In this document: in pieces, positions 4,182 through 16,816 of the stretch
Layout: the number at the start of each line of letters is the position of its first letter
How positions within the stretch are numbered: the stretch's first letter is position 1
From: Dechloromonas sp. ZY10
GTDB lineage: Bacteria > Pseudomonadota > Gammaproteobacteria > Burkholderiales > Rhodocyclaceae
Length of the DNA stretch: 64,000 bases
Assembly: GCF_041378895.1 (NCBI RefSeq)
Contig: NZ_CP144212.1
Span: forward strand, 2,899,501 to 2,963,500
Reading direction: 5' to 3'
Notes under the pieces: model-generated
Told to the model about the DNA's origin: nothing
The model's input: the letters and a program-made list of their open reading frames with translations, nothing else
The model's database searches: none
Program-made: the position numbers and the translations under genes

Positions 4182-5873
4182 ATGAAAATCGCCTTCCGCC
4201 CCAAGCTGCTGGATTGCCTGCCGAGCTATGATCGCGCCCAGTTCGGCAAGGATGTCGCCGCCGGAATCACCGTTGGCGTGCTCGCCCTGCCGCTGGCCAT
4301 GGCGTTTGCGATTGCCTCGGGCTGTTCGCCGGCCGCCGGCATCTGGACCGCCATCGTCGCCGGCCTGCTGACCTCGCTGTTCGGCGGCTCGCGAGTGCAG
4401 ATCGGCGGCCCGACCGGAGCCTTCATCCCGATTGTGTACGGCATCGTCGCCCTGCACGGCTTCGCCAACCTGCTCGGTGCGACCATGCTCGCCGGCGTGC
4501 TGCTGCTGGCGATGGGGCTGGCGCGCCTCGGCCAGCTGATCCGCTTCATCCCGGTAACGGTGGTAATCGGCTTCACCAACGGCATCGCGGTGGTGATCTT
4601 CATGGCCCAGATCAAGGATTTCTTCGGCCTGCAAATCGAACACTTGCCAGCCGAGTTCTTTGCCCGCAGCAAGACCCTGCTCGCGCATGCCCACACGGTC
4701 GACTTGCCGACCCTGGCCCTTTCCAGCGCCTGCTTTCTGTTCCTCCTTTCGTACAATCGCCTGGCCCAGCGCTGGGCGCCGCTACGCCGCGCCCCCGGTC
4801 CGCTCGCGGTGCTGGTTGCCGGCACCGTCGCTGCCTGGCTGCTGGAACTGCCGGTCGAGACCATCGGCAGCCGCTTCAACGGCATCCCGCAGGAACTGCC
4901 GGCCTTCGGCCTGCCGGAACTGTCGATCCACCATTTCGGCAAACTGATCCCGCCGGCCATCACCATCGCACTGCTGGGCGCGATTGAGTCCCTGCTCTCG
5001 GCCCGCGTTGCCGACGGCCAGATCGACGACCGCCACGATCCCAACCAGGAATTGATCGCCCAGGGTCTGGCCAACCTGGCAGCACCGTTGTTCGGCGGCT
5101 TTGCCGCGACCGGGGCGATTGCCCGCACTACGACTAATGTCCGCACCGGCGGCCGCACGCCGATTGCCGGCATCGTCCATGCGCTGGTGCTGCTGGCGGT
5201 GGTCCTGATCGCCGCGCCGCTGGCCGCCTACGTGCCGCTGGCAACGTTGTCGGCCATCGTGATGGTGGTCGCGATCAACATGGGCGAATGGCACGAGTTC
5301 CGCGAACTGCGCCGCTACTCCTGGAATTACCGGGTGATCCTGGTCAGCACCTTCCTGGTCACCGTGCTCTTCGACCTGACCATCGCGGTCGAACTGGGCA
5401 TGGTTCTGGCCAGCCTGTTCTTCATCTACCGGATGTCGGAACTGACCCGGATCGAGCGCATGCCGCTCGACGACGAAGCCGGCGACCACTGCTTCATGCA
5501 CCCGGACGGCAGCCTGCGCGTTGCCGCCTGGCAACTGTTCGGCTCGCTGTTCTTTGGCGCGGTCAACAAGCTGGAAGAATTGCTTGATCCGCAGGCCGGC
5601 CACCCGGAAATCGTGATCCTCGACATGAGCCGGCTGGTGCAACTCGATACCAGCGGCCTGGAAGGCCTGGAAAACCTGCGCGAAAAGCTGGCCAGGCGCG
5701 GCTGCACGCTGCTATTGTGCGGCCTCAATTCACAACCCGGCTCGCTGCTGTACCGTGCCGGCTTCATCGACCATCTGGGCGACGACAACGTCTGCCTCGA
5801 CCTGAACCAGGCGCTCGCGCGCGCCCGCCAGCTGCTGCCCGACCTGAGCGGCAACGGCGACGAAGACTATTAA
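4182..5873 (+). CDS. SulP-family anion transporter with STAS domain
   Basis: 563 residues. Residues 1 to about 430 carry the hydrophobic SLC26/SulP transport core; 'GITVGVLALPLAMAFAIASG' and 'GGPTGAFIPIVYGI' are typical of the early transmembrane segments. A C-terminal STAS domain follows (about 440-555), containing 'LDTSGLEGL'. SulP proteins import sulfate, bicarbonate or other anions, usually driven by H+ or Na+. The next genes form a DAB-type inorganic-carbon operon on the other strand, which makes bicarbonate an attractive substrate. Sulfate or dicarboxylate cannot be excluded from sequence. The Shine-Dalgarno is weak. The phnA-like gene follows after 12 bases and is probably cotranscribed. 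Confidence 0.88.
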   Translation: MKIAFRPKLLDCLPSYDRAQFGKDVAAGITVGVLALPLAMAFAIASGCSPAAGIWTAIVAGLLTSLFGGSRVQIGGPTGAFIPIVYGIVALHGFANLLGATMLAGVLLLAMGLARLGQLIRFIPVTVVIGFTNGIAVVIFMAQIKDFFGLQIEHLPAEFFARSKTLLAHAHTVDLPTLALSSACFLFLLSYNRLAQRWAPLRRAPGPLAVLVAGTVAAWLLELPVETIGSRFNGIPQELPAFGLPELSIHHFGKLIPPAITIALLGAIESLLSARVADGQIDDRHDPNQELIAQGLANLAAPLFGGFAATGAIARTTTNVRTGGRTPIAGIVHALVLLAVVLIAAPLAAYVPLATLSAIVMVVAINMGEWHEFRELRRYSWNYRVILVSTFLVTVLFDLTIAVELGMVLASLFFIYRMSELTRIERMPLDDEAGDHCFMHPDGSLRVAAWQLFGSLFFGAVNKLEELLDPQAGHPEIVILDMSRLVQLDTSGLEGLENLREKLARRGCTLLLCGLNSQPGSLLYRAGFIDHLGDDNVCLDLNQALARARQLLPDLSGNGDEDY

Positions 5874-5885
5874 AAAAGGAACACC

Positions 5886-6224
5886 ATGAGCAGCCTCCCT
5901 CCCTGCCCGCAATGCGGCTCCGAATACGCCTATGAAGACGGCGCCCTGTACATCTGTCCCGAATGCGCCCATGAGTGGAGCAAGGATGCCGGCGCAGGCG
6001 AAGAAGCCGCGCGCGTCTGGAAGGATGCCAACGGCAACGTACTGCAGGACGGCGACAGCGTGACCGTGATCAAGGATCTGAAGATCAAGGGTTCGTCGGC
6101 GGTGGTCAAGGTTGGCACCAAGGTCAAGAACATCCGCCTGATCGACGGCGACCACGACATCGACTGCAAGATCGACGGCTTCGGCGCGATGCAACTCAAG
6201 TCGGAATTCGTCAAGAAGGCCTGA
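5886..6224 (+). CDS. PhnA/YjdM-family zinc-ribbon protein
   Basis: 112 residues. The N-terminal zinc ribbon has two CxxC knuckles ('[21 protein letters not shown]'). It is followed by the compact PhnA domain with '[28 protein letters not shown]' split into two strands and '[22 protein letters not shown]'. Despite the old name, this family is not a proven phosphonoacetate hydrolase and its role is unsettled. AAAAAGGA precedes the ATG by a few bases. It is the last gene of the SulP unit; a 30-bp dyad starts 15 bases after its stop. Confidence 0.85.
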
Positions 6225-6335: not shown

Positions 6336-7793
6336 TCAACGCGGCCAACTGGCGGCCCAGGCTTCGGCCGCTGGCGCCAGCAGTTCCAGCCAGGGAGCCG
6401 GATACAGGCCAGTCACCAGCAACAACGCAATCCAGAGTAGCAGCAGACCACGTTCGCGGCGGCGCAAATCTTCGGCCTGCACCATCGCCGCCCGCTCCGG
6501 CGCCCCCCAGAATGCCTTGCGATAAATCTGCAGCCAGCCGGCAAGCGCAATCGACAAGCCGAACAGTGCCGCCATCCCGGCCCCGGTGTGGCTTTCCAGC
6601 GCACTCAGCAACAGCAGCAGTTCGCCGGGGAAACCGCCGGTTCCGGGCAGCCCGGCTCCGGCCAGCGCGCAGAACAGAATCCCGGCGGCCAGCAGCGGCA
6701 TGCTTTCAGCCGCCCCGCCCAAAGCCTGCAAATCGTTTGAGCCGCAGCGCTGGCGCAGGCACTCGAGCAGTAAACAGACACCGCCGCTGGTCAGCACAAA
6801 ACTCAGCAAAGTCGCCACCGCGCCCTGCACGCCCTGTGCGCTCAGCCCTGCAAGGCCAAGCACCACCAGCCCGGCGTGACTGATGCTGGCGTAAGCCAGC
6901 GCCACCCGCAGGTTGCTCTGCGCCAGCATGGCCACGGCGCCATACAGCAAGGCAACGGTACCGAGCCCGGCCAGCAGCCAGTGAAGTTGCGCCGCCACCT
7001 CCGGCGCCAGCGGCAAAGCAAAGCGCAGCAAACCATAGGCGCCCAGCTTCAAGCCGAGCAGGAGCGCCAGTTGCGAACCCGGCGCAGCGAGGGCCACTTG
7101 CGGCAGCCAGGTATGCAGCGGCACCAGCGGCAATTTGAGTCCGAAGGCAAACAGGCAGAGCAGGAAGACCCCCCACTGGGTCGGAACTTCGGGCGGTGCC
7201 GCCAGCCAGGCCAGCAGATCGAAGCCCTGCTCCGGCCGTTGTCCGGCCAGCAGCAGGAAGGCCAGCAACAAGGCTGCCCCGCCGGCCAGCATCAGCAGAC
7301 AATAGCGCGCGGCCACCTGCGGCGCGCGGCTGCCCAGCCCGAAACGGGCCAGCAGGAAATACAAGGGAACCAGCGTTGCCTCCCAGAAAACGAAGAACAA
7401 CAGGGTGTCGACCGCAGAAAACAGCCCCAGCGTCGCGCCGAGCAAGGCCAGTTGCAAGGAATAGTACAGACGCCGCCCGACCCGGACGGCATTCCAGTCA
7501 ACGACCAGTGCTGCCAGGAAGAGCAAGGCCGTGGCCGGCAAAAAAAGCACCGACAAGCCGTCGACCGCCACCTGGTAGTGAGCATCGAGGCCCGGCAGCC
7601 ACAAGTGGCGCTCAAGCAACTGAAAGCGTTCGCCCTGCGGCACGAACCGCGCAGCCACTGCCAGCGCCTGCGCCAGTACGGCAAGCAGAATGCCCGCCTG
7701 GGCTGCACGCAACCAGCGCTCGGGGAACCATTGCAACAGCACGATGCCGGCCAGCGGCAGGCCAATCAGCCAGGACAGGGCATGTTCGCTCAT
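6336..7793 (-). CDS. NuoM-like proton-translocating subunit of the DAB-type operon (third extra subunit)
   Basis: 485 residues, about 14 hydrophobic segments, a full Proton_antipo_M core. The key charged positions of complex I antiporter subunits are present: Glu138 in 'FVFWEATLVPL', Lys220 in 'FGLKLPLVPLHTWLP', Lys249 in 'LLLGLKLGAYGLL' and Glu391 in 'GTGGFPGELLLL'. It should therefore conduct or pump H+ (or Na+) across the inner membrane. The ATG at 7793 overlaps the upstream stop by 4 bases (ATGA), so translation is coupled. It is the last gene of a five-gene unit with DabA and DabB and no NADH-dehydrogenase genes, which argues against a nuo operon. Confidence 0.85.
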   Translation of the reverse strand: MSEHALSWLIGLPLAGIVLLQWFPERWLRAAQAGILLAVLAQALAVAARFVPQGERFQLLERHLWLPGLDAHYQVAVDGLSVLFLPATALLFLAALVVDWNAVRVGRRLYYSLQLALLGATLGLFSAVDTLLFFVFWEATLVPLYFLLARFGLGSRAPQVAARYCLLMLAGGAALLLAFLLLAGQRPEQGFDLLAWLAAPPEVPTQWGVFLLCLFAFGLKLPLVPLHTWLPQVALAAPGSQLALLLGLKLGAYGLLRFALPLAPEVAAQLHWLLAGLGTVALLYGAVAMLAQSNLRVALAYASISHAGLVVLGLAGLSAQGVQGAVATLLSFVLTSGGVCLLLECLRQRCGSNDLQALGGAAESMPLLAAGILFCALAGAGLPGTGGFPGELLLLLSALESHTGAGMAALFGLSIALAGWLQIYRKAFWGAPERAAMVQAEDLRRRERGLLLLWIALLLVTGLYPAPWLELLAPAAEAWAASWPR

Positions 7794-9301
7794 CGCGCAA
7801 ACCTCGCAGCAGCCCGCTCGCTCGCCACTTCGGTCAGATGCAGCCAGGGCTCGGTGAAGAAGCCGCTGGTCAGCAGGGCAGCCAGGGTCATGCCGCAAAC
7901 CAGGTATTCCATCGGCAAGGTACGGTCAACCTGACTGCCGCCGCCTTTCGGCTGCGACAGGAAAGCCTTCTGAAAAGCCCACAGCAGGAAGCCGGCAGCG
8001 GTCACGTTACCAAGCGCGGTGGCCACCGTCGACAAGGCACCGAACTGGTCGATTGCCGCCTCCAGCACCAGGTGCGCGGCATCGAAACCGGGGGTGCCGG
8101 GCATCCCGACAATGGCCAGACCGCAGGTGAGGAAGGCAATGGCAAGAAAGGGAATGCGCTCGAACAAGCCGGACAATTCGTCGAGTTCGGTGGTCCCGGT
8201 ACGGCGGAAAACGAAGCCGACGATAAACCACATACCGGTCACCGCCAGCCCGAAGTTGGCGGCCAGCAGTACCGCCCCCTGAATCCCGGCCTGATGCAGA
8301 CTGAACAGGCCGATCACCAGCAAGCTGGTATGGCTGACCACGGCAAAAGCCAGCAAGCGGCGCAGATTGGTTTGCAGAAAAGCCAGGGCGGCAGTGAAGA
8401 AAACCCCGGCCATGGCAAAACCAACCACATAAGGCTGCCAGGCCAGCACCGCCTCCGGCGTCAGCGGCAGGACAAAGCGGAGCATGCCGTAAAACCCGAC
8501 CTTGACCCCGACCATCAGCGCCGGCCCGACCGCGATCAGGCCGTGCTGCGCCATGTTCGGCAGCCAGCCATGCAGTGGAAACAGCGGCGTCCGCACCGCC
8601 AGGCCGTAGAACAGCAGATAGAAGGCTACGGTCTGGAATTTGCCGGCCGGTGCCGCCCCGAGCAGATCGAACAGATCGAAGCTCCAGCGCCCGTTGCTCA
8701 CCTCGGCATGACTCCAGCCCAAGACCAGGCAACCGGCGAAAAACAACAGCCAGCCGAAGGCCTGGTACTGGACAAAGCGCGACAAAGCCTGGATTTCGGC
8801 ACGCGAACAAGCCCAGCGGCGGAGCAGGTAGATCACCGCCCACAACTCCAGCGCGGAATACAAAGCAAACCACAGGATATTCAGCGTCACCAGCATCCCG
8901 ACCAGTCCGCCCTCGGCCAGCAGCAAGACGGCAAACAGGTGCCCCGGCGAAATCATCCCCCGGCTCATCCCGTACAAGGTCATCAGCAAGGTCAGCAAGG
9001 CGGCCAGCAGGATGAAGACCACCGACAGGCCGTCGACCGCCACATGATAGGCCAGCGGCGCAAAGCGCTCGGCCAGTTGCAGCGCCGGCAAGCCCGGATC
9101 AAGCGCGCGCAGGGCGCCCAGCGCCAGCAGCAACTCGGCCAGGGCCAGCAACTTGCCCAAGGTGACCGCGCTGCGTCGCTCGCCCAGCGCCAGCACCAGG
9201 CCGGCCCCGGCAAACGGCAGCACCTGCAACCACAGCAGCCAGGGCTGTACAGCCTGCGCCGACCAGAGGATTTCCTGCAGCGGGACATTGTCCGGAGTCA
9301 T
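7790..9301 (-). CDS. NuoM/NuoN-like antiporter subunit with Lys-to-Arg change (second extra subunit)
   Basis: 503 residues with the Proton_antipo_M fold. The helix-5 glutamate is kept (Glu152 in 'ALYSALELWAVIY') and the helix-8 lysine is kept (Lys267 in 'LMVGVKVGFYGML'). The helix-7 lysine of NuoM is Arg237 here ('LAVRTPLFPLHGWLP'), so its proton path may differ from its siblings. The ATG at 9301 shares its A with the stop of DabB (TGATG); an in-frame TTG sits one codon earlier. It lies inside the DAB-type operon and ends by overlapping the next gene. It probably forms part of the same membrane complex. Confidence 0.83.
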   Translation of the reverse strand: MTPDNVPLQEILWSAQAVQPWLLWLQVLPFAGAGLVLALGERRSAVTLGKLLALAELLLALGALRALDPGLPALQLAERFAPLAYHVAVDGLSVVFILLAALLTLLMTLYGMSRGMISPGHLFAVLLLAEGGLVGMLVTLNILWFALYSALELWAVIYLLRRWACSRAEIQALSRFVQYQAFGWLLFFAGCLVLGWSHAEVSNGRWSFDLFDLLGAAPAGKFQTVAFYLLFYGLAVRTPLFPLHGWLPNMAQHGLIAVGPALMVGVKVGFYGMLRFVLPLTPEAVLAWQPYVVGFAMAGVFFTAALAFLQTNLRRLLAFAVVSHTSLLVIGLFSLHQAGIQGAVLLAANFGLAVTGMWFIVGFVFRRTGTTELDELSGLFERIPFLAIAFLTCGLAIVGMPGTPGFDAAHLVLEAAIDQFGALSTVATALGNVTAAGFLLWAFQKAFLSQPKGGGSQVDRTLPMEYLVCGMTLAALLTSGFFTEPWLHLTEVASERAAARFAR

Positions 9302-10824
9302 CAAAGGATCACCACAAAAGTCGCCATCACCGCCATCATCAAATAGCGCGGCTGTTCGAGAAGATTTTCGACGGTCGCCAGATACCCGGCCAGCCGCCGC
9401 AACAAGCGTTCGCCAAAGCCGCCCCGGCCACGCAGCAAGAGGCGCTGCTCAAGACGGTCGAGGTGATCCGAAACCGCGCCGAGGAGCAGGCCGGGCCAGC
9501 CATCGACCCGGACCAGCGGGCGCTGTGGATCGGGAGCCACGCCACTGCCAGGCTCGCCCACCACCCGATCGACGAAAGCCCGCTCGAATTGCCGCAAGTC
9601 GTGAGCAAAGGCTTCGGTCGGCTGCACGATCAGGATCTGCTCCAGCTTGCCCAGCCAGAAGCGCTGCAGGGCGGCGGTATACCACCCCTGGCGCCGGGCC
9701 AGCCAGGCGGGTGGCGAGGACGGCCGCTGCCGGCTCCATTGCAGCCAGGACGGCGCCACCAGAAACTGCCAGGCACGCCAGGCGGTATGCAGACACAGAT
9801 GCACCAGCGCCACGGTGGTCCAGCCACAGCCAATCGCCACCACCATCAGCGCCACCTGGAACAGCGTGCCAAAAATCAGCCCGGATTTGACATCGGTCTG
9901 TACCTGCGCACAGAACCAGGCATACACCGCCGTCAGGCTGCCGACGGCGACCAGCCCGTACATGATGTCGGGCACCCGCGCCAACGCCGGCTCCAGACGC
10001 AGCAGCAGATAGACACCGGCATGAATCAGCACGGCTCCGTAGAAAATCGCCGACGACGGGGTCGGGCCTTCGAGCGCCCGGATGATCCACGGCGAAAAGG
10101 GAAACTGCGCCGACTTGACCAGTGCCGCAACGACAAAGCCAAGGGCCAGCAGGCGCAGTTCGATCACGCTCAAGGCCGGATCGTGCAGCCGCGCCCAGGA
10201 AAAATCCCCCAGCCAGAAAGCCGACAGGCCCAGGGCAAAGAGCAGCCCGGCATCGCCGACCCGGTTACTGGTCAGAGCAAACAGGGCATTACCGGTGGCC
10301 AGCGGCCGCTGTCGCTGATAGCCGATCAGCAGGAAGGAAGCGAGTCCGCACCACTCCCAGCCGATGAACAGGAGCAGGCTGTTGCCGGCCAGAAAGAGCA
10401 ACTGGATGCCAGCCAGGAAAAGCATCAACACGATGAAAAACCGCTGAAAACCAGCTTCGCGGTGCAGGTAATTGCGAGAAAAGCGGGTGACTAACCAGCC
10501 GATCAAGGCGCTGACTGTCGCCACCGACAAGGACAGTGGATCAAGCAGAAATGAAAACTCGGCACGCCAGCGCGGATTGGCAAACCAGAGCACGCCCGGC
10601 AACTGGCCGGGCACCCCGGTCAGCCAGGCACCGAGGTCGAGTGCCAACAGCAGGAGCAGGCTGCCCAGAGCCGCCGCCTCGGCCAGCCGGGCGGTACCGG
10701 GCTCGCCGGCGTCGCCGCAGGCGCGCCCGGCAAGAATACGCAAGACAATCAACAATCCGGCCAGCAACGGCAGCAGCGGAACCAGCCAGACCAGATCGGC
10801 AAGCAGCGAGAAGTATGCGTTCAT
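9301..10824 (-). CDS. dabB: DabB-type NuoL-like inorganic-carbon transporter subunit
   Basis: 507 residues. It is NuoL-like rather than NuoM-like: 'LLLFIGWEWCGLASFLLIGY' with Glu157, 'ALVKSAQFPFSPWI' with Lys237, then 'EGPTPSSAIFYGAVLIHAGVYLLLR', as in DabB/NuoL. In the characterised DAB complex of Halothiobacillus neapolitanus, DabB is the cation-translocating membrane half that energises the carbonic-anhydrase-like DabA. The C-terminal third is less hydrophobic and ends with a membrane segment ('MMAVMATFVVIL'). GGAGGTG precedes the ATG, which overlaps the dabA stop by 4 bases. The direct dabA-dabB junction is the usual gene order of DAB systems. Confidence 0.88.
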   Translation of the reverse strand: MNAYFSLLADLVWLVPLLPLLAGLLIVLRILAGRACGDAGEPGTARLAEAAALGSLLLLLALDLGAWLTGVPGQLPGVLWFANPRWRAEFSFLLDPLSLSVATVSALIGWLVTRFSRNYLHREAGFQRFFIVLMLFLAGIQLLFLAGNSLLLFIGWEWCGLASFLLIGYQRQRPLATGNALFALTSNRVGDAGLLFALGLSAFWLGDFSWARLHDPALSVIELRLLALGFVVAALVKSAQFPFSPWIIRALEGPTPSSAIFYGAVLIHAGVYLLLRLEPALARVPDIMYGLVAVGSLTAVYAWFCAQVQTDVKSGLIFGTLFQVALMVVAIGCGWTTVALVHLCLHTAWRAWQFLVAPSWLQWSRQRPSSPPAWLARRQGWYTAALQRFWLGKLEQILIVQPTEAFAHDLRQFERAFVDRVVGEPGSGVAPDPQRPLVRVDGWPGLLLGAVSDHLDRLEQRLLLRGRGGFGERLLRRLAGYLATVENLLEQPRYLMMAVMATFVVIL

Positions 10825-13800
10825 GCGACACCTCCGGGTGGAACCGCGCAGTCCAGCAAAGCCGGCGGCAGCGCCGTGCTTTTGCCGGCAAACCAGCTCG
10901 CCGAATCGGCCACCCGAACCGGAGGTTCTCCCTCGGCGGCAGGCTGCCAAGGCACCCAGCCACGACCGATCAGCAAACGCTGGATTTCGCCGCTGTGCGG
11001 ATCTTGCGCCGCAACCGTGACCCAGGCGTTGCCGATCAATTCCTGCAGGGCGGGCTGGCGGGCGACGATGGCATCGAGAATCGCCGGAGTCTGTTCGACC
11101 ACAATCAGCAAGCGCATCGGCTCGTGGATTTCGACCATTTGCTGCGGCAGACCAGTGCGCAAATCGGATTCACAGCCGGCCATTACGCCGAAACCGCCGG
11201 CCAGGTTGTGGGTGACCTTCGAGCCGCAGCCGTAGCGCTCGTTATCGACGGTGGAGAAGTAATACTCCAGACTGATGCCAGCCCCGACCGGCCCCGCCGC
11301 CAGCAAGATGCCCTCGACAATCCGGCCGCCGTCATCGGTCAGCGGATCGTAGGAAATCAGGAACACCCGCCGGTCGAGAAACAAACCGCGACTGGCTTGC
11401 CGGCGGCCAATATAGGCAGCCGCATTGGTCGCATGCCCAAGCTCCGGCCGCGCCTGCGACAAATCCTGCGCGCGTCCGGCGACATGCCGCCAGGCCTGCC
11501 ATGGCGAGGGCTGACGCGGTGCCGAGGCCAGCCGCCGGCAACGCTCGACGGCGTGCGCCCGGCAAGCCGCCGCCAATTGTCCGACCAGCGTATCGAGGGC
11601 GCCTTGCCAGCCAGCCGGAACCTGATCGAGGTCGTACCAATCGACCCGGTCATCGCAGGTGTTGTGAAAGGCGGCGACGAACCAGGTGCTCTCGGGAATC
11701 TGAATCCCGACTTCAGCCAGCCCGGCGCGGACCTCGGGACGATTGGCCATCGCCGCGAAGACACGGGCGTTCGGTCCGCCATGACGGCCGGAGCAGGCGC
11801 CGCAATCGTAGGCCGAGCGGTGCGGATTGTTCAGGCTGGTCGAGCCGTGCCCAAGGAGCAGCACCAAAGGAGCAAAGCCGCCGGTCAAGCCAATCATGCG
11901 CAGGAAGGCGGCCACCCGCTCGATCTGCTCGCGGTCGGTGAACCCCAAGCGTGGACTCTGCTTTGCACCTTCCGGGCCAGCGGTCAATTGCAGTTCGCCG
12001 GGAAGTTCGCCTTCGTAAGCCCGGCGCCAATGCTGCAAACGTTCGCCCAGCCAGGCCGGGGCCAGACTGCCAGCCAACAAGGCAGCCAGTGCCGGCACAG
12101 CGGCTCCGGCTGCAAGCAAAGGCCCACTCACCGGAGCCAGCCGGGTGGCCCGGTGCAAACGCTCGCGCCAGCGCAACCGCCGCTGTTGTCGCGACTGGTG
12201 CCGTTCCTGTTGCGCGCTGTCGGCATTGGCCTGCTCGCGAATCAGCACTTCGGGACGAACCACCACCGGGCACAGAGCCGTCGGTGCCGGATCATCCTGC
12301 CCCTGCCAGTACATCGCCACGCCAAAAAAGCCGGCTGCCCCGTAGGTCTCGATCTCCGGAGCAATTTCCTCAAGATGGCGGCGCGTTCCCTCCTCCCGGT
12401 CATCCATGCACATCACCACCTGCGCCGATCTGCTCGCGGCAAGTCGACTGCGCCCGTGATTGGCCCGCAGCGCGGCAAAGAGCTGCTCCCGGTAATGGCC
12501 TTCGTAAGCCAGCAACCAGATTTCACCACGCTGTCCAGCGCTCAAGCTGGCAGCAACGTCCAGTATCTGCTCGGCGGCTGCGGGCGACCACGCCGCCAGT
12601 GCCTCGGCACCCAGCCCCAGCGCGCTGCACAAACGCCACAGGGCCCGGGCATCTTCCCGAGCCTGGGGCAACGCGGCCAGCCGCTCGGCCAACGCGTCCC
12701 AGGCGACACTGGCATGCGCCTGATCCGAGCATTCGAGCGCAGCCGCGACCTCGGCTGCCAGTTCCTCGGGCAAGGCACGGCAGCGCCAGGCGTCGCGGAC
12801 CAGAAACTCCCCCGGACGGGCCGTGAACCAATCCGCCAAATCGCTGCAGGCCAGCGGCTGGCCGGTCAGCCGGCGGAGCTGATCCTCGCACAGCAGGCGC
12901 TCCAGCAGAACCCGCACTGCCAACCAGTCAGCAAGCGCTACCGGCGTGCCATCGCCGGCTTCGGGATGCTCCTGATGCCAGTGCAGCATCCCCGACCAGC
13001 CCGGAAATTCGAGCAGCAAGCGCTCCAGGTAGCGCGGCCATTGGGCCTCGGGCAATAGCCGCGGCAACTCTTCGGCAAGCAGGGCCACCGGATCGTCCGG
13101 CAAGTGGCGGATTTCATCGCGCACATTCGGCAGTTCGTCGAACTCCCACTGCCAATCAAGGCCGGCACTAGCCCGCCAGGCGGCATAAAACCCTTCGCCC
13201 CGGGCCGGATTGCGCCAAGCCGCCAGACTGTGGTCAAGGTGCGCCGCCAGATGGCGCTGCAGCACGGTACGCACGGCGGCCAGCAGATCGAGCCCGTAGA
13301 GATGTTCGATCAAGCCGCGCCAGGTCAGCCGATCGCCAAGCTGTGCCCACAGGGCTTCCTGCCGCTGCCTGGCCTGTTCGCGCCAATTGGCAACCTCGCC
13401 CGTCGCTGCCGCTGTGCTGGGCATTGCCACGGTCAACTGCTGACAAATGCTAAAAAGTGGGTCCGTCTCCAGGCGGTGCTCGGCCAGCCACCACTCCGCG
13501 CCCCCGGTCGCCTCGAACGGGACACCAGTGCAGAGCGCCGCCAGCAACACGTCCTGCCGGCTCAATCCGGGCAGCACGGGGCGTTCCGGATCGGGAATAC
13601 CGGCCTCGACCAGTGCTGCTGCCAGGTCGCTGCGGGTAATTCGGCCGGACTCAAACTCGCGGCGAAAACGAGCTTCCGGCCAGTAAGCCAGGGCGCCGGT
13701 ATGAGCCTGAGCAGTCGCTACCGCATCGCGGAATGGCAAATGCTGATAGGCGTGCAAGGTATTGTGATGCACGAAATCACGTAGCGGAGCTTGCGCCGGC

Positions 13801-13886
13801 AAGCGATGGGTGCATTCATGCAACCACTCGGCAAGGCGCTCGTGGAACGACAGGGCTTCCGCTCCGGAGCTCGAAGGAATGCTCAT
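10821..13886 (-). CDS. dabA: DabA (DUF2309) inorganic-carbon transporter subunit
   Basis: 1021 residues, full length for the DUF2309/UPF0753 family. DabA is a cytoplasmic, carbonic-anhydrase-like protein that, with DabB, makes CO2-to-bicarbonate conversion vectorial. The zinc-site residues known from H. neapolitanus are all present: Cys493 and Asp495 in 'VVMCMDDREEG', His680 in 'LLLGHGSTSLNNPHRSAYDCG', shortened here to 'LLLGHGSTSLNNPHR', and Cys695 in 'SAYDCGACSG'. His and Cys are 15 apart, as in the reference protein. The N-terminus 'APLRDFVHHNTLHAYQHLPF' is also a family hallmark. The start is 2 bases after the stop of the upstream NuoM-like gene, with a G-rich ribosome site inside that gene's end. 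Confidence 0.95.
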   Translation of the reverse strand: MSIPSSSGAEALSFHERLAEWLHECTHRLPAQAPLRDFVHHNTLHAYQHLPFRDAVATAQAHTGALAYWPEARFRREFESGRITRSDLAAALVEAGIPDPERPVLPGLSRQDVLLAALCTGVPFEATGGAEWWLAEHRLETDPLFSICQQLTVAMPSTAAATGEVANWREQARQRQEALWAQLGDRLTWRGLIEHLYGLDLLAAVRTVLQRHLAAHLDHSLAAWRNPARGEGFYAAWRASAGLDWQWEFDELPNVRDEIRHLPDDPVALLAEELPRLLPEAQWPRYLERLLLEFPGWSGMLHWHQEHPEAGDGTPVALADWLAVRVLLERLLCEDQLRRLTGQPLACSDLADWFTARPGEFLVRDAWRCRALPEELAAEVAAALECSDQAHASVAWDALAERLAALPQAREDARALWRLCSALGLGAEALAAWSPAAAEQILDVAASLSAGQRGEIWLLAYEGHYREQLFAALRANHGRSRLAASRSAQVVMCMDDREEGTRRHLEEIAPEIETYGAAGFFGVAMYWQGQDDPAPTALCPVVVRPEVLIREQANADSAQQERHQSRQQRRLRWRERLHRATRLAPVSGPLLAAGAAVPALAALLAGSLAPAWLGERLQHWRRAYEGELPGELQLTAGPEGAKQSPRLGFTDREQIERVAAFLRMIGLTGGFAPLVLLLGHGSTSLNNPHRSAYDCGACSGRHGGPNARVFAAMANRPEVRAGLAEVGIQIPESTWFVAAFHNTCDDRVDWYDLDQVPAGWQGALDTLVGQLAAACRAHAVERCRRLASAPRQPSPWQAWRHVAGRAQDLSQARPELGHATNAAAYIGRRQASRGLFLDRRVFLISYDPLTDDGGRIVEGILLAAGPVGAGISLEYYFSTVDNERYGCGSKVTHNLAGGFGVMAGCESDLRTGLPQQMVEIHEPMRLLIVVEQTPAILDAIVARQPALQELIGNAWVTVAAQDPHSGEIQRLLIGRGWVPWQPAAEGEPPVRVADSASWFAGKSTALPPALLDCAVPPGGVA

Positions 13887-13888
13887 CC

Positions 13889-15358
13889 TTACCCCCCTAC
13901 CCCGCCAAGCAGCGAGGCCACGCTACTGCCGATCAGGTTCAGCAAGGGCGCCGGCCATACCCCCAGAGCGATGATCGCCAGCACCAGTAAAGTCGCCGCA
14001 AACGTCTCGATCCGATCGAGATCGGCCATCTGTTGCACCGGCCCCGGCAAGCATAAGCGCCCGATCACCCGCAAGCTGGCTGCTGCCGCAATCAGCAAGG
14101 CCAATCCGAGCACCACGGCCCAGCCCCCATGACTAACCAGCACCGCCAGTAACACATGCACTTCGGCAACAAAGCCGGCACTGCCGGGCAGGCCGAGTAC
14201 CGCCAGCCAGCCAAAGGCGATAAAGACGACAAAACGCGGAGCTACGCCTTGCAACGAGCCATAGTCGGCCAGATCCCGGCTGTGCTGGCGCTGATACAGG
14301 AGCCCGACGATCAGGAACAACAAGGCCGCAGTCAAGCCGTGCGCAACCATCTGCAAGACCGCTCCGGTCAGCCCTTTGACTTCAAGCGAGGCGATCCCGA
14401 GCAAGACCACGCCCATGTGCGAAATCGACGAATAAGCCACCATCGCCTTGAGATCCTGTTGCCGCCAGGCCAGGATGCCGCCGTAAAGCAGGGAGCCGAA
14501 AGCCAGGATCACCAAGGCTTGCTGCGCCGCCAGCAAGCCGGCGGGCAGAGTCTGTGCTGCGCGAATCAGACCATAAGCCCCCATTTTGAGCAGGATGCCA
14601 GAGAGCAGAATCGACACCGGACTGGGCGCTTCGACGTGGGCCAGCGGCAACCAGCCATGCACCGGAAAAACCGGCATCTTGACCCCGAAGCCGAGGCAGA
14701 GCCCGGCAAAGATCAGCAACTGCACGCGTGGTTCCAGCGCCTGTCCGCCGACAGCCATGTCGGCCATGGCAAAGCTGTGACCGGGCGCGGCGTCATAAAG
14801 AAAAAGCAGGGCCACCAGCATGAATACCGAACCGCCGAGGGTATAGAGAAAGAAATTCAGCGCAGCCCGTTGCCGGTCGGCGCCCCCCAGACGGTCAATC
14901 AGGAAAAACAGGGGAACCAGCGTGGCCTCCCAGAAAACATAGAACAGAGACCAGTCGCGGGCGCTGAAAACGCCAAAAATCGCCGATTCGAGCAATAGCA
15001 GCAAGGTGTAATAAAGACGGCCGCCGCGCGCCGTCTGACGGGACACCAGTACCGCCACCAAGGTCAGCAAGGCGGTGAGCAGCAGCAAGGCAACCGCGAT
15101 ACCATCGACCCCGAGGGCAAAATAGGAGCCAAGCCGGGCGTTCCAGGCCTGGCTTTCTTCAAACTGGAATACCGGCCCCGCCGGATCGTAGCGCCAAGCG
15201 ATGATCACCGTCAGCGCCAGCACCCCGGCAGAGAAAACTCCGGCCAACCGCCAGCGCCCGGCGCTGCCCAGCCCAGGCCAGGCTCCGGTCAACAACGCCC
15301 CGACCACCGGCAGAAACAACAACAGCTTCAGCACACGCCCCCCCGGGTCGAGCGCCAT
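13889..15358 (-). CDS. NuoM-like proton-translocating subunit, first gene of the DAB-type operon
   Basis: 489 residues and the most canonical NuoM-like protein of the three: Glu144 ('YVFWEATLVPLFFLI'), Lys227 ('GFGVKMPVFPVHGWLP'), Lys258 ('ILLKMGAYGLIR') and Glu399 ('PGSAGFVAEV') all sit at the proton-path positions. It has about 14 membrane helices. As the first gene of the operon it should set the expression of DabA and DabB. The ATG at 15358 has no clear Shine-Dalgarno; a GTG eight codons downstream (15334), behind a run of G, is an alternative start. No nuo genes accompany it, so a role in the DAB-type pump is more likely than in complex I. Confidence 0.84.
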   Translation of the reverse strand: MALDPGGRVLKLLLFLPVVGALLTGAWPGLGSAGRWRLAGVFSAGVLALTVIIAWRYDPAGPVFQFEESQAWNARLGSYFALGVDGIAVALLLLTALLTLVAVLVSRQTARGGRLYYTLLLLLESAIFGVFSARDWSLFYVFWEATLVPLFFLIDRLGGADRQRAALNFFLYTLGGSVFMLVALLFLYDAAPGHSFAMADMAVGGQALEPRVQLLIFAGLCLGFGVKMPVFPVHGWLPLAHVEAPSPVSILLSGILLKMGAYGLIRAAQTLPAGLLAAQQALVILAFGSLLYGGILAWRQQDLKAMVAYSSISHMGVVLLGIASLEVKGLTGAVLQMVAHGLTAALLFLIVGLLYQRQHSRDLADYGSLQGVAPRFVVFIAFGWLAVLGLPGSAGFVAEVHVLLAVLVSHGGWAVVLGLALLIAAAASLRVIGRLCLPGPVQQMADLDRIETFAATLLVLAIIALGVWPAPLLNLIGSSVASLLGGVGG

Positions 15359-15429
15359 CGTTGCAGACGGCCCGCCATTTTCGTCCCCATTATTTTTTCA
15401 TCCGGCGATTATGCCAGCGGTACCCCGGT

Positions 15430-15458
15430 TTGACAGCCCATGTCGGCTTGGATAAATT
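15430..15458 (+). promoter_or_regulatory. Sigma-70 promoter of the peroxiredoxin gene
   Basis: TTGACA (15430-15435), a 17-bp spacer and TAAATT (15453-15458) match the sigma-70 consensus closely. The predicted transcript starts near 15465, giving a leader of about 40 bases. The DAB-type operon begins 71 bases to the left on the other strand, so its promoter must overlap this stretch. A weak CATAAT is seen for it at 15408-15413 on the minus strand. Confidence 0.6.
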
Positions 15459-15502
15459 CGCCGCTTCCCCAACCCAGAAATAATTCCACAAGGAGCTCTC
15501 TC

Positions 15503-16102
15503 ATGGCCGTTCTCGTTGGCAAGCAAGCCCCGGACTTCACCGCCACCGCCGTCTATGGCGATAACGAAATCAAGGAACTCAAGCTGTCCGACTTCAAGGG
15601 CAAGCCGGTCGTCCTGTTTTTCTACCCGCTCGACTTCACCTTCGTCTGCCCGTCCGAACTGATTGCCTTCGATCATCGCCTGGAAGAATTCAAGCAACGC
15701 GGCGTCGAAGTCATCGGCGTCTCGATCGACTCCCAGTTCACCCACCTCGCCTGGAAAAACACCCCGGTCAAGGAAGGCGGCATCGGCCAGGTCGGCTATC
15801 CGCTGGTCGCCGACATCAAGCATGACATCTGCCGTGCCTACGATGTTGAACTCGAAGCTGCCGGCGTGGCCTTGCGCGGCTCTTTCCTGATCGACAAGAA
15901 TGGTGTGGTCATGCACCAGGTTGTAAACATGCTGCCGCTGGGGCGCAACATCGACGAAATGCTGCGCATGGTCGACGCCCTGCAGTTCTTCGAAGAACAC
16001 GGTGAAGTCTGCCCGGCTGGCTGGAACAAGGGCAAGCCCGGCATGACCGCGACCCCTGAAGGCGTCGCCTCCTACCTGGCCAAGAACGCCAAGAAGCTGT
16101 AA
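15503..16102 (+). CDS. Typical 2-Cys peroxiredoxin (AhpC/TSA family)
   Basis: 199 residues. The peroxidatic cysteine is in '[15 protein letters not shown]' and the resolving cysteine in '[15 protein letters not shown]', the arrangement of typical 2-Cys peroxiredoxins. It reduces hydrogen and alkyl peroxides in the cytosol, probably with thioredoxin, since no AhpF is adjacent. Its closest look-alikes are betaproteobacterial Prx proteins, distinct from the AhpC at 41836. AGGAG lies 8 bases before the ATG. A clear promoter lies upstream and a strong terminator downstream, so it is monocistronic. Confidence 0.93.
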
Positions 16103-16120
16103 GTCGGCCCCATGCTGACA

Positions 16121-16154
16121 GCCCCGGTCGTTTTTTGCGACCGGGGCTTTTTTA
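16121..16154 (+). terminator. Intrinsic terminator after the peroxiredoxin gene
   Basis: A 10-bp perfect stem (GCCCCGGTCG/CGACCGGGGC, arms 16121-16130 and 16138-16147), a 7-base loop and a run of T from 16148. Confidence 0.9.
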
Positions 16155-16234
16155 TTTAGCCGCACCAAAATGCTGCAAACCGGCTGCAATCCGTTAAAAT
16201 CCTTCGGATAACAGCAAACGCTTATCCCAAAACC

Positions 16235-16816
16235 ATGGCAGATCAGGAATACCTCAGCACCCGACAGGCCGCACAACGCCTTGGCGTCTCCCTCGGAACC
16301 GTTCAGAACATGGTTGAAAGCGGCGCGCTTGAAGCCTGGAAGACGGCCGGCGGCCACCGCCGGATTCCGGTCGCGTCAATTGATGCCGTGCTCGCGCGCC
16401 GGCGGGCAGCACTGGGCAAGGACAACAACGGCATGCTCGACCTGCTGATTGCCGAGGATGAGCCGATGTTGCGCACGTTGTATGAATCCACCATCGAAAG
16501 CTGGAACCTGCCGATTCGCCTGCGGATGGTCGAAAACGGCTTCGACGGGCTGATCGAGGTCGGCCAGAGAACGCCGGACATTCTGATCGCCGATCTGATG
16601 ATGCCAGGAATGGATGGCTTCGAAATGATCCGCCGGCTGCGCGAAAAACCCGAACTGGCGCAGATGGACATCATCGTGATCAGCGCGATCGAGCGCCATC
16701 TGATTGCTGAAAAAGGGCTGCCCAGCGATGTTACCGTCTTTGGCAAGCCAATTCCGTTTCACGAAATCAAGGGCTTTGTTCTCGGCCGCTTGGCGGCCCA
16801 ACAACGGACGGTCTGA
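16235..16816 (+). CDS. Excisionase-type HTH fused to a response-regulator receiver domain
   Basis: 193 residues in two parts. Residues 5-55 are a MerR/excisionase-type helix-turn-helix ('LSTRQAAQRLGVSLGTVQNM', 'TAGGHRRIP'). Residues 68-190 are a receiver domain with the acidic pocket ('LLIAEDEP'), phospho-acceptor Asp ('ILIADLMMPGMDGFEM'), a Ser switch ('IIVISAIE') and the Lys ('VFGKPIP'). Placing the DNA-binding part first is the reverse of most response regulators. It should be a phosphorylation-controlled transcription factor. No histidine kinase lies nearby, so its partner and targets are unknown. It converges with lpxC. Confidence 0.82.
   Translation: MADQEYLSTRQAAQRLGVSLGTVQNMVESGALEAWKTAGGHRRIPVASIDAVLARRRAALGKDNNGMLDLLIAEDEPMLRTLYESTIESWNLPIRLRMVENGFDGLIEVGQRTPDILIADLMMPGMDGFEMIRRLREKPELAQMDIIVISAIERHLIAEKGLPSDVTVFGKPIPFHEIKGFVLGRLAAQQRTV

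Follow-up and report, generated by a model that had tools for sequence, protein, structure and literature searches.

The stretch of DNA considered here (the window, 64,000 nucleotides of Dechloromonas sp. ZY10, contig NZ_CP144212.1) carries on its minus strand a compact operon built around DabA, the zinc subunit of the DAB-type inorganic-carbon pumps. Whereas the known pumps of this type pair DabA with one antiporter-like partner, DabB, four antiporter-like genes accompany it here, called A, B, C and D in the direction of transcription:

13889..15358, minus strand: gene A, a NuoM-like antiporter subunit of 489 amino acids and the operon's first gene (PF00361, 228.8 bits; TIGR01972, 460.2 bits)
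10821..13886, minus strand: DabA, the zinc-binding, beta-carbonic-anhydrase-like subunit, 1021 amino acids (PF10070, 796.7 bits)
9301..10824, minus strand: gene B, a shortened NuoL-type DabB of 507 amino acids (PF00361 and PF00662)
7790..9301, minus strand: gene C, a divergent NuoM-like subunit of 503 amino acids with altered proton-path residues (TIGR01972, 268.6 bits)
6336..7793, minus strand: gene D, a NuoM-like antiporter subunit of 485 amino acids and the operon's last gene (TIGR01972, 363.1 bits)

An earlier, sequence-only reading of the window had described these as five coupled genes in this order, and all five open reading frames were confirmed: A and DabA are separated by two bases, DabA and B overlap in an ATGA, B and C meet in a TGATGA, and C and D again share an ATGA overlap. 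The match of DabA to PF10070 compares with a curated cut-off of 25 bits. PF00361 is present in A, B, C and D, and the cut-off of the NuoM subfamily profile TIGR01972 (263.8 bits) is exceeded by A, C and D; B is NuoL-like, yet falls under the NuoL cut-offs shown in the subfamily profile search. Among the five abutting genes, to which this search was confined, none encodes an Mrp small subunit (MrpB, C, E, F or G). Nor is there a NuoA-K, NADH, hydrogenase or redox gene among the five, in keeping with the claim that such modules are absent, and the complex I genes of this organism lie elsewhere in its genome. No inverted or direct repeats were found upstream of A in 15350-15445. With A upstream of DabA and B, C and D downstream, the layout differs from that of the two-gene DABs.

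The arrangement recurs widely. The window DabA as query matched 83 of 369 genomes drawn from the class, and 140 DabA loci were fetched: 20 from among the best matches, 40 from among the weaker, and the 80 top-ranking loci of 568 relatives from a scan of genome contigs. These loci were picked by DabA similarity, the 80 scan loci by patterns taken from this clade, so that the counts describe the sample and are no estimate of abundance. The exact order A-DabA-B-C-D stands in 64 of the 140, and 11 more hold all five genes together with fusions, split or cut reading frames or additional neighbours (L039, L040, L093, L094, L120, L121, L125, L136, L145, L147 and L150). The classical pair, with DabB upstream of DabA, accounts for 39 loci (38, plus L063 with two pairs). 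The remaining 26 comprise 16 that end at a contig end inside the operon and ten of other layout (L041, L043, L044, L055, L056, L057, L058, L078, L142 and L151). A layout peculiar to this one genome was thereby rejected, and even in loci chosen by similarity rather than at random, 64 identical orders go beyond chance. The search for DabA beside three or more antiporter-like genes, suggested on the strength of the sequence alone, reveals a conserved unit, whose gene order is fixed across families of the class. Among the named loci of the scan, those with the closest DabA belong to Azonexus, Dechloromonas and other Azonexaceae or Rhodocyclaceae, and the holders that the scan names include Azonexus, Dechloromonas, Accumulibacter, Contendobacter, Methylobacter, Venteria and tubeworm symbionts. 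As side observations, a Thiothrix metagenome-assembled genome reads A, DabA, B, DabA, B, C before its stretch ends without D (L142:7454-20915), and further antiporter-like genes of uncertain type adjoin the operon in two loci of Accumulibacter and one of the Rhodocyclaceae (L120:1-5044, L121:2427-3884 and L150:17441-19588).

The catalytic subunit itself is strongly conserved. The zinc ligands C493, H680 and C695 and the D495/R497 dyad are invariant in 94/94 five-gene and 39/39 two-gene DabAs (94 of the 96 five-gene DabAs were aligned, L053 and L105 having been dropped as incomplete), so the zinc-site residues first named, C493, D495, H680 and C695, were correct. The predicted model of DabA has a beta-carbonic-anhydrase-like fold and resembles the CsoSCA-type beta-carbonic anhydrases; the 2026 structure of DAB2 was not among the fold matches shown (library to April 2026), and DAB2 was found by sequence search. 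Given the intact zinc site and the CsoSCA-like model, vectorial hydration of CO2 is the likely chemistry. What sets the five-gene DabAs apart is the finger, whose helices are predicted in the window DabA. In DAB2, the finger residue Glu444 is essential and completes the outer half-channel; this Glu is present in 39/39 two-gene DabAs and in 0/94 five-gene DabAs, and the window DabA has Ala in its place.

The antiporter-like subunits differ from each other in descent. A tree of 117 such proteins was built from about 13 loci per subunit, the window and the split copies, with rows assigned to A-D beforehand by BLAST and with quick searches without bootstraps. In it, each of A, B, C and D forms one clade, with supports of 97, 99, 99 and 99 in the Shimodaira-Hasegawa-like approximate likelihood ratio test (SH-aLRT). 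B, joined with the corresponding subunits of loci L058 and L056 (SH-aLRT 99), is sister to the two-gene DabBs (89), while A, C and D belong with NuoM (100), C having D as its sister (98). It therefore looks like a DabA-DabB core was joined by three NuoM-derived subunits, which agrees with the proposed position between DAB and complex I. The host's own nuoM clusters with other nuoM (SH-aLRT 100). An origin of A, C and D by duplication of a nuo fragment was rejected, since they form clades of their own (SH-aLRT 97-99) apart from the host nuoM; the clustering with a separate nuo operon that would have spoken against an enlarged pump was thus not seen. As such, the tree supports an enlarged DAB type that differs both from complex I and from two-gene DABs. 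Support for the five-gene clade in the DabA tree, likewise a quick search without bootstraps, is only 26 without L055 and 98 with it. In a basal relative, L054 (G051:C165:1-11608), A and DabA are followed by a NuoL-like gene within which the contig breaks off; this locus has Asp as finger acid and keeps the coupling Glu.

The residues that carry protons in antiporter-like subunits were then compared across homologues. In A, E144, K227, K258 and E399 are kept in 89/89 homologues; in D, E146, K228 and K257 are kept in 71/71 and E399 in 69/71, with 2 gaps (numbering of the 493-amino-acid form). C is altered in one consistent way and has not decayed: the Glu of transmembrane helix (TM) 5 is present in 0/83, with Glu, Gln or Asp two residues further on, the TM7 Lys is Arg in 83/83, the TM8 Lys is kept in 83/83, and the TM12 Glu is replaced by Ala or Ser with Asp or Glu one residue earlier in 82/83 (1 gap). 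The C half of 49 aligned fused proteins has the same altered pattern, except for two divergent rows. The claim of a full set of proton-path charges in two of the three extra subunits thus holds for A and D and excludes C.

B combines features of NuoL with a striking loss. The equivalents of NuoL E144, R175, D178 and K229 are kept in 90/90 five-gene B proteins, and the Glu157 and Lys237 reported for it are right in the 507-amino-acid numbering (165 and 245 in the longer aligned form). The position of NuoL K342 is Arg in 90/90, in contrast to Lys in 39/39 DabB-first pairs. The coupling Glu (NuoL E144, Glu157 of B) is likewise present in 90/90 five-gene B and in 0/39 DabB-first pairs; Ile151 of DAB2 falls in this column, pairing with the Phe of L065 that occupies it. 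The Glu is also found in NuoL and in L054, L056 and L057, so that it may be the DabB-first pairs, in losing it, that are derived, and the fortieth two-gene DabB, the DabA-first L058, carries it too. In DAB2, the loss has been read as favouring an open state, and restoring the Glu halved growth yield (PMC13144422, cited here, like PMC5700660 and PMC6606698, from excerpts). After the HxxxHxxxR motif, the window B has 1 predicted helix, where the median for two-gene DabB is 4 and the host NuoL has 6; five-gene B proteins have 0-3 there (median 1), two-gene DabBs 4 or more. These predictions suggest that B lost helices of its own outer half-channel. With C altered, B shortened and the DabA finger devoid of Glu, A and D are left as the complete NuoM-type channels by residues. 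Of the four cation channels originally envisaged per DabA, those of A and D are therefore borne out at residue level, and the case for those attributed to C and B is weakened.

Fusions and broken operons provide further evidence that the genes belong together. In Competibacteraceae, B and C are fused, and 47 of 120 listed proteins (P0241-P0287, query included) span 88-100% of the fused query. In the predicted model of a fused B-C protein, both halves are confident and the joint is not (predicted template modelling score 0.54). A mixed alignment of fused and single proteins that seemed to lay C over B, with invariant columns common to rows of both halves, was not used. Broken operons still keep the complete subunit set: one genome has DabA alone and A-B-C-D together on another contig (G074, locus L055), a second has A-DabA, with B distant on the same contig and C-D on another (G330), and in two the genes A and D lie away from both DabA and the B-C fusion (G068 and G199). 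In the simple cases the number of PF00361 genes fits this picture, with 7 in G000, G034, G330 and G319, and 4 in G248, where DabA and DabB stand alone. Separately, two single metagenome proteins (P0292 and P0294) join the end of DabA to B in frame, either as a fusion or through a sequencing error. Several signs thus point to one function shared by A, DabA, B, C and D, and the five proteins likely form one complex.

An explanation that we regard as quite unlikely divides the operon in two, with DabA and B as an ordinary lone DAB pump and A, C and D as a separate, co-expressed antiporter (Mrp-like, Na+/H+ or K+/H+) that might, for example, restore pH or sodium after bicarbonate build-up. The complete antiporter-type charges of A and D would suit it, as would the genomes in which the genes stand apart, the argument that MpsAB uses sodium (PMC13144422), the DabA beside an Mrp-type operon in L057, and L058, whose DabA-DabB falls on this side of the tree and is not accompanied by extra subunits. 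Against a division speak the B-C fusions, which covalently link a DabB-type subunit to an extra one, the fixed order with A upstream of DabA and C and D downstream of B, and the abutment of the five genes with no Mrp small-subunit gene between them, as far as the search of these five goes. Moreover, because B lost most of its outer half-channel helices, a lone DabA-B would have no obvious proton entry.

The available data are compatible with a model in which the products of the five genes assemble into one enlarged DAB-type vectorial carbonic anhydrase, with protons entering through A and/or D, a reading whose chances we judge to be about even. DabA would sit on B, hydrate CO2 at its buried zinc site and release bicarbonate inside. 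B would still have its half-channel on the cytoplasmic side and the ion pairs that serve coupling in complex I, without the outer half-channel helices, and the proton-motive force would drive protons in through the complete NuoM-type subunits, A and/or D. From there, protons could move sideways along the charge chain to B, by way of C should it be placed in between, and the charge arriving at B would gate DabA. The gene order, the overlaps, the conservation, the residues, the shortened B and the missing finger Glu are read from the sequence; the single complex, the direction, the lateral proton path and a ratio above one proton per CO2 belong to the model. A bolder version, which we hold only tentatively, sees in the operon a relative of the membrane arm of complex I that works without redox chemistry, with NuoM-type proton entry, a lateral ion-pair chain leading into a shortened NuoL-type DabB devoid of an outer half-channel of its own, and more than one proton per CO2 to power hydration by DabA; such a multi-proton mechanism would be plausible.

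By our own estimate, 1 proton at 150 mV could already bring bicarbonate to about 300-fold over equilibrium, so that thermodynamics does not call for more protons while the membrane potential is normal. This figure, like the uniform alteration of C, would fit a single five-subunit complex that uses one proton per CO2, the stoichiometry of DAB2, with A, C and D in structural or regulatory roles such as stability or a gating threshold. We consider this unlikely, since A and D retain all four charged residues, which is unexpected for mere scaffolds. By the same estimate, extra protons matter mainly at low membrane potential. The hosts include denitrifiers and feast-famine sludge bacteria, which fits a low-potential role and is only suggestive. 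If the multi-proton mechanism is true, bicarbonate could accumulate at low proton-motive force.

The direction of coupling has also been drawn the other way. A 2017 proposal for COG3002 operons has the DabA reaction release energy that the membrane subunits use to pump ions outward, their number setting the number of ions (PMC5700660); for the present operon we consider this highly improbable, for the authors of the DAB2 structure let energy flow inward, with the proton-motive force as the driver (PMC13144422). In favour of the outward scheme, the NuoM-type pumps of complex I do pump outward; against it, hydration of CO2 at cytoplasmic pH yields too little energy for several protons.

Several findings weigh against the enlarged, A- and/or D-fed pump and should be set beside it. 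The altered charges of C could break the proton chain, and the placement of B against C in the fused model is unreliable, residues 411-542 mostly having a predicted local distance difference test score (pLDDT) below 50. The finger is not uniformly neutral, since 10/94 five-gene DabAs have Asp at this position. Furthermore, the traits track clades and so count as few evolutionary events. In L058, the DabB that comes after DabA carries the coupling Glu and has Arg in the K342 column, the finger of DabA lacks an acid, and neither the neighbourhood of this DabA nor the genome (G248, 88% complete, 4 PF00361 genes) contains a recognized gene for an extra subunit; these traits hence do not require A, C and D. 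PF00361 counts alone are not diagnostic either: two genomes of other layout (G025 and G070) also have 7, and eight further five-gene-type genomes have 8-12, partly from Mrp-like sets. Finally, the host has one beta-carbonic anhydrase gene of the PF00484 family, so that its need for a pump is not obvious.

The host genome comprises 3.57 Mb on one contig, with one DabA and seven PF00361 genes, three of which are nuoL, nuoM and nuoN of a separate complex I operon at C1:1107.6-1122.1 kb. In that operon, NuoA, B, D, F, H, J and K were recognized by Pfam and L, M and N by PF00361, and NuoC, E and G were assigned by position. The search of the host genome gave no match to the RuBisCO large subunit, and a RuBisCO-based concentrating role in this host was rejected on that ground; the bicarbonate most likely feeds ordinary carboxylases and not a carboxysome. 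RuBisCO is present in 14/17 other five-gene-type genomes and absent from G068, G199 and G051 (the 17 include split or incompletely seen sets, e.g. G051, G074, G094 and G330). Autotrophy and the five-gene operon hence coincide often, but not in this host.

The operon is flanked by SulP, YjdM and AhpC genes, the first of which is its convergent neighbour:

4182..5873, plus strand: SulP-family anion transporter with a STAS domain (PF00916, 312.6 bits; PF01740, 53.4 bits)

A SulP homologue is found in 36/96 five-gene-type loci compared with 2/39 two-gene loci, and the gene is possibly a functional associate of the operon, outside the operon itself. Genes flanking the operon at 15440-16816 and 5886-6224 of the window recur in related loci as well: an AhpC-type peroxiredoxin in 22/96 five-gene-type loci versus 0/39 two-gene loci, a helix-turn-helix response regulator in 29/96 versus 0/39, and YjdM in 25/96 versus 1/39. 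These recurring AhpC, response-regulator and YjdM flanks probably reflect the common ancestry of close relatives.

Among known systems, the closest is DAB2 of Halothiobacillus neapolitanus (DabA2-DabB2, PDB 9rd0), which shares the PF10070 family, the Cys2His site with its Asp-Arg dyad, the NuoL-like partner and, by prediction, the finger helices. The operon differs from it in that DabA precedes DabB, three NuoM-type subunits are added, B keeps the coupling Glu where DAB2 has Ile151 and has Arg, not Lys, at K342, and three or more helices are missing from B. A different combination was observed in L057:1373-13280 (genome G025; DabA P0121, named Oceanococcus sp.), where DabA lies between a SulP gene and an Mrp-type operon on the same strand, with MnhE, MbhD/E, MnhB, a chain 4L-like gene and three Proton_antipo_M genes. 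Its NuoL-like subunit branches just outside DabB and B (SH-aLRT 91), its DabA is 51-66% identical to the 119 other listed proteins, and no second DabA nearly as similar to it was found in 85 genomes of its order.

The membrane arm of complex I, with NuoL, NuoM and NuoN, comes with a NuoA-K/NADH module that the five-gene operon lacks; in the host, it has an operon of its own, and A, C and D form clades apart from nuoM. The distinction bears on annotation: those listed C homologues to which a source gives a name are mostly called NADH-quinone oxidoreductase subunit M or complex I subunit 4. How energy is transferred laterally through the antiporter-like subunits of complex I is a long-standing open question. 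A natural five-gene machine that seems to employ such subunits with no redox chemistry, beside a two-gene version that functions in their absence, offers a clean comparison for this question. If the multi-proton reading is true, long-range proton coupling would here be wholly separated from electron transfer. The zinc subunit of cyanobacterial NDH-1MS differs from DabA. NDH-1MS likewise couples CO2 hydration to an antiporter-bearing membrane complex; it is driven by ferredoxin (PMC13144422), whereas the five-gene operon has no electron-transfer gene. In 2M complex I (Chadwick 2018, via PMC6606698), too, an extra NuoM is supposed to let more protons through in each cycle, but that enzyme is redox-driven and its NuoL is lengthened, while the present operon has a shortened B and lacks a redox module.

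The core idea has been known in outline since 2017, when COG3002 operons with DabA upstream of a NuoL homologue, NuoM and SulP genes were described (PMC5700660). The 'clade C' operons of that work have DabA (there YbcC) before a NuoL homologue with NuoM and SulP nearby, and all of these features are present in the window, the SulP gene at 4182-5873 standing on the opposite strand. The clade C passages of PMC5700660 mention neither a five-gene order nor residues, fusions or a tree of the subunits, and no description of the five-gene order was found in the literature searched, the supplementary figures of PMC5700660 lying outside its scope. The residue pattern, the shortened B, the missing finger Glu, the fusions, the split sets and the subunit tree were likewise not found in the literature examined. 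Taken together, the operon is a conserved, enlarged form of a known kind of pump.

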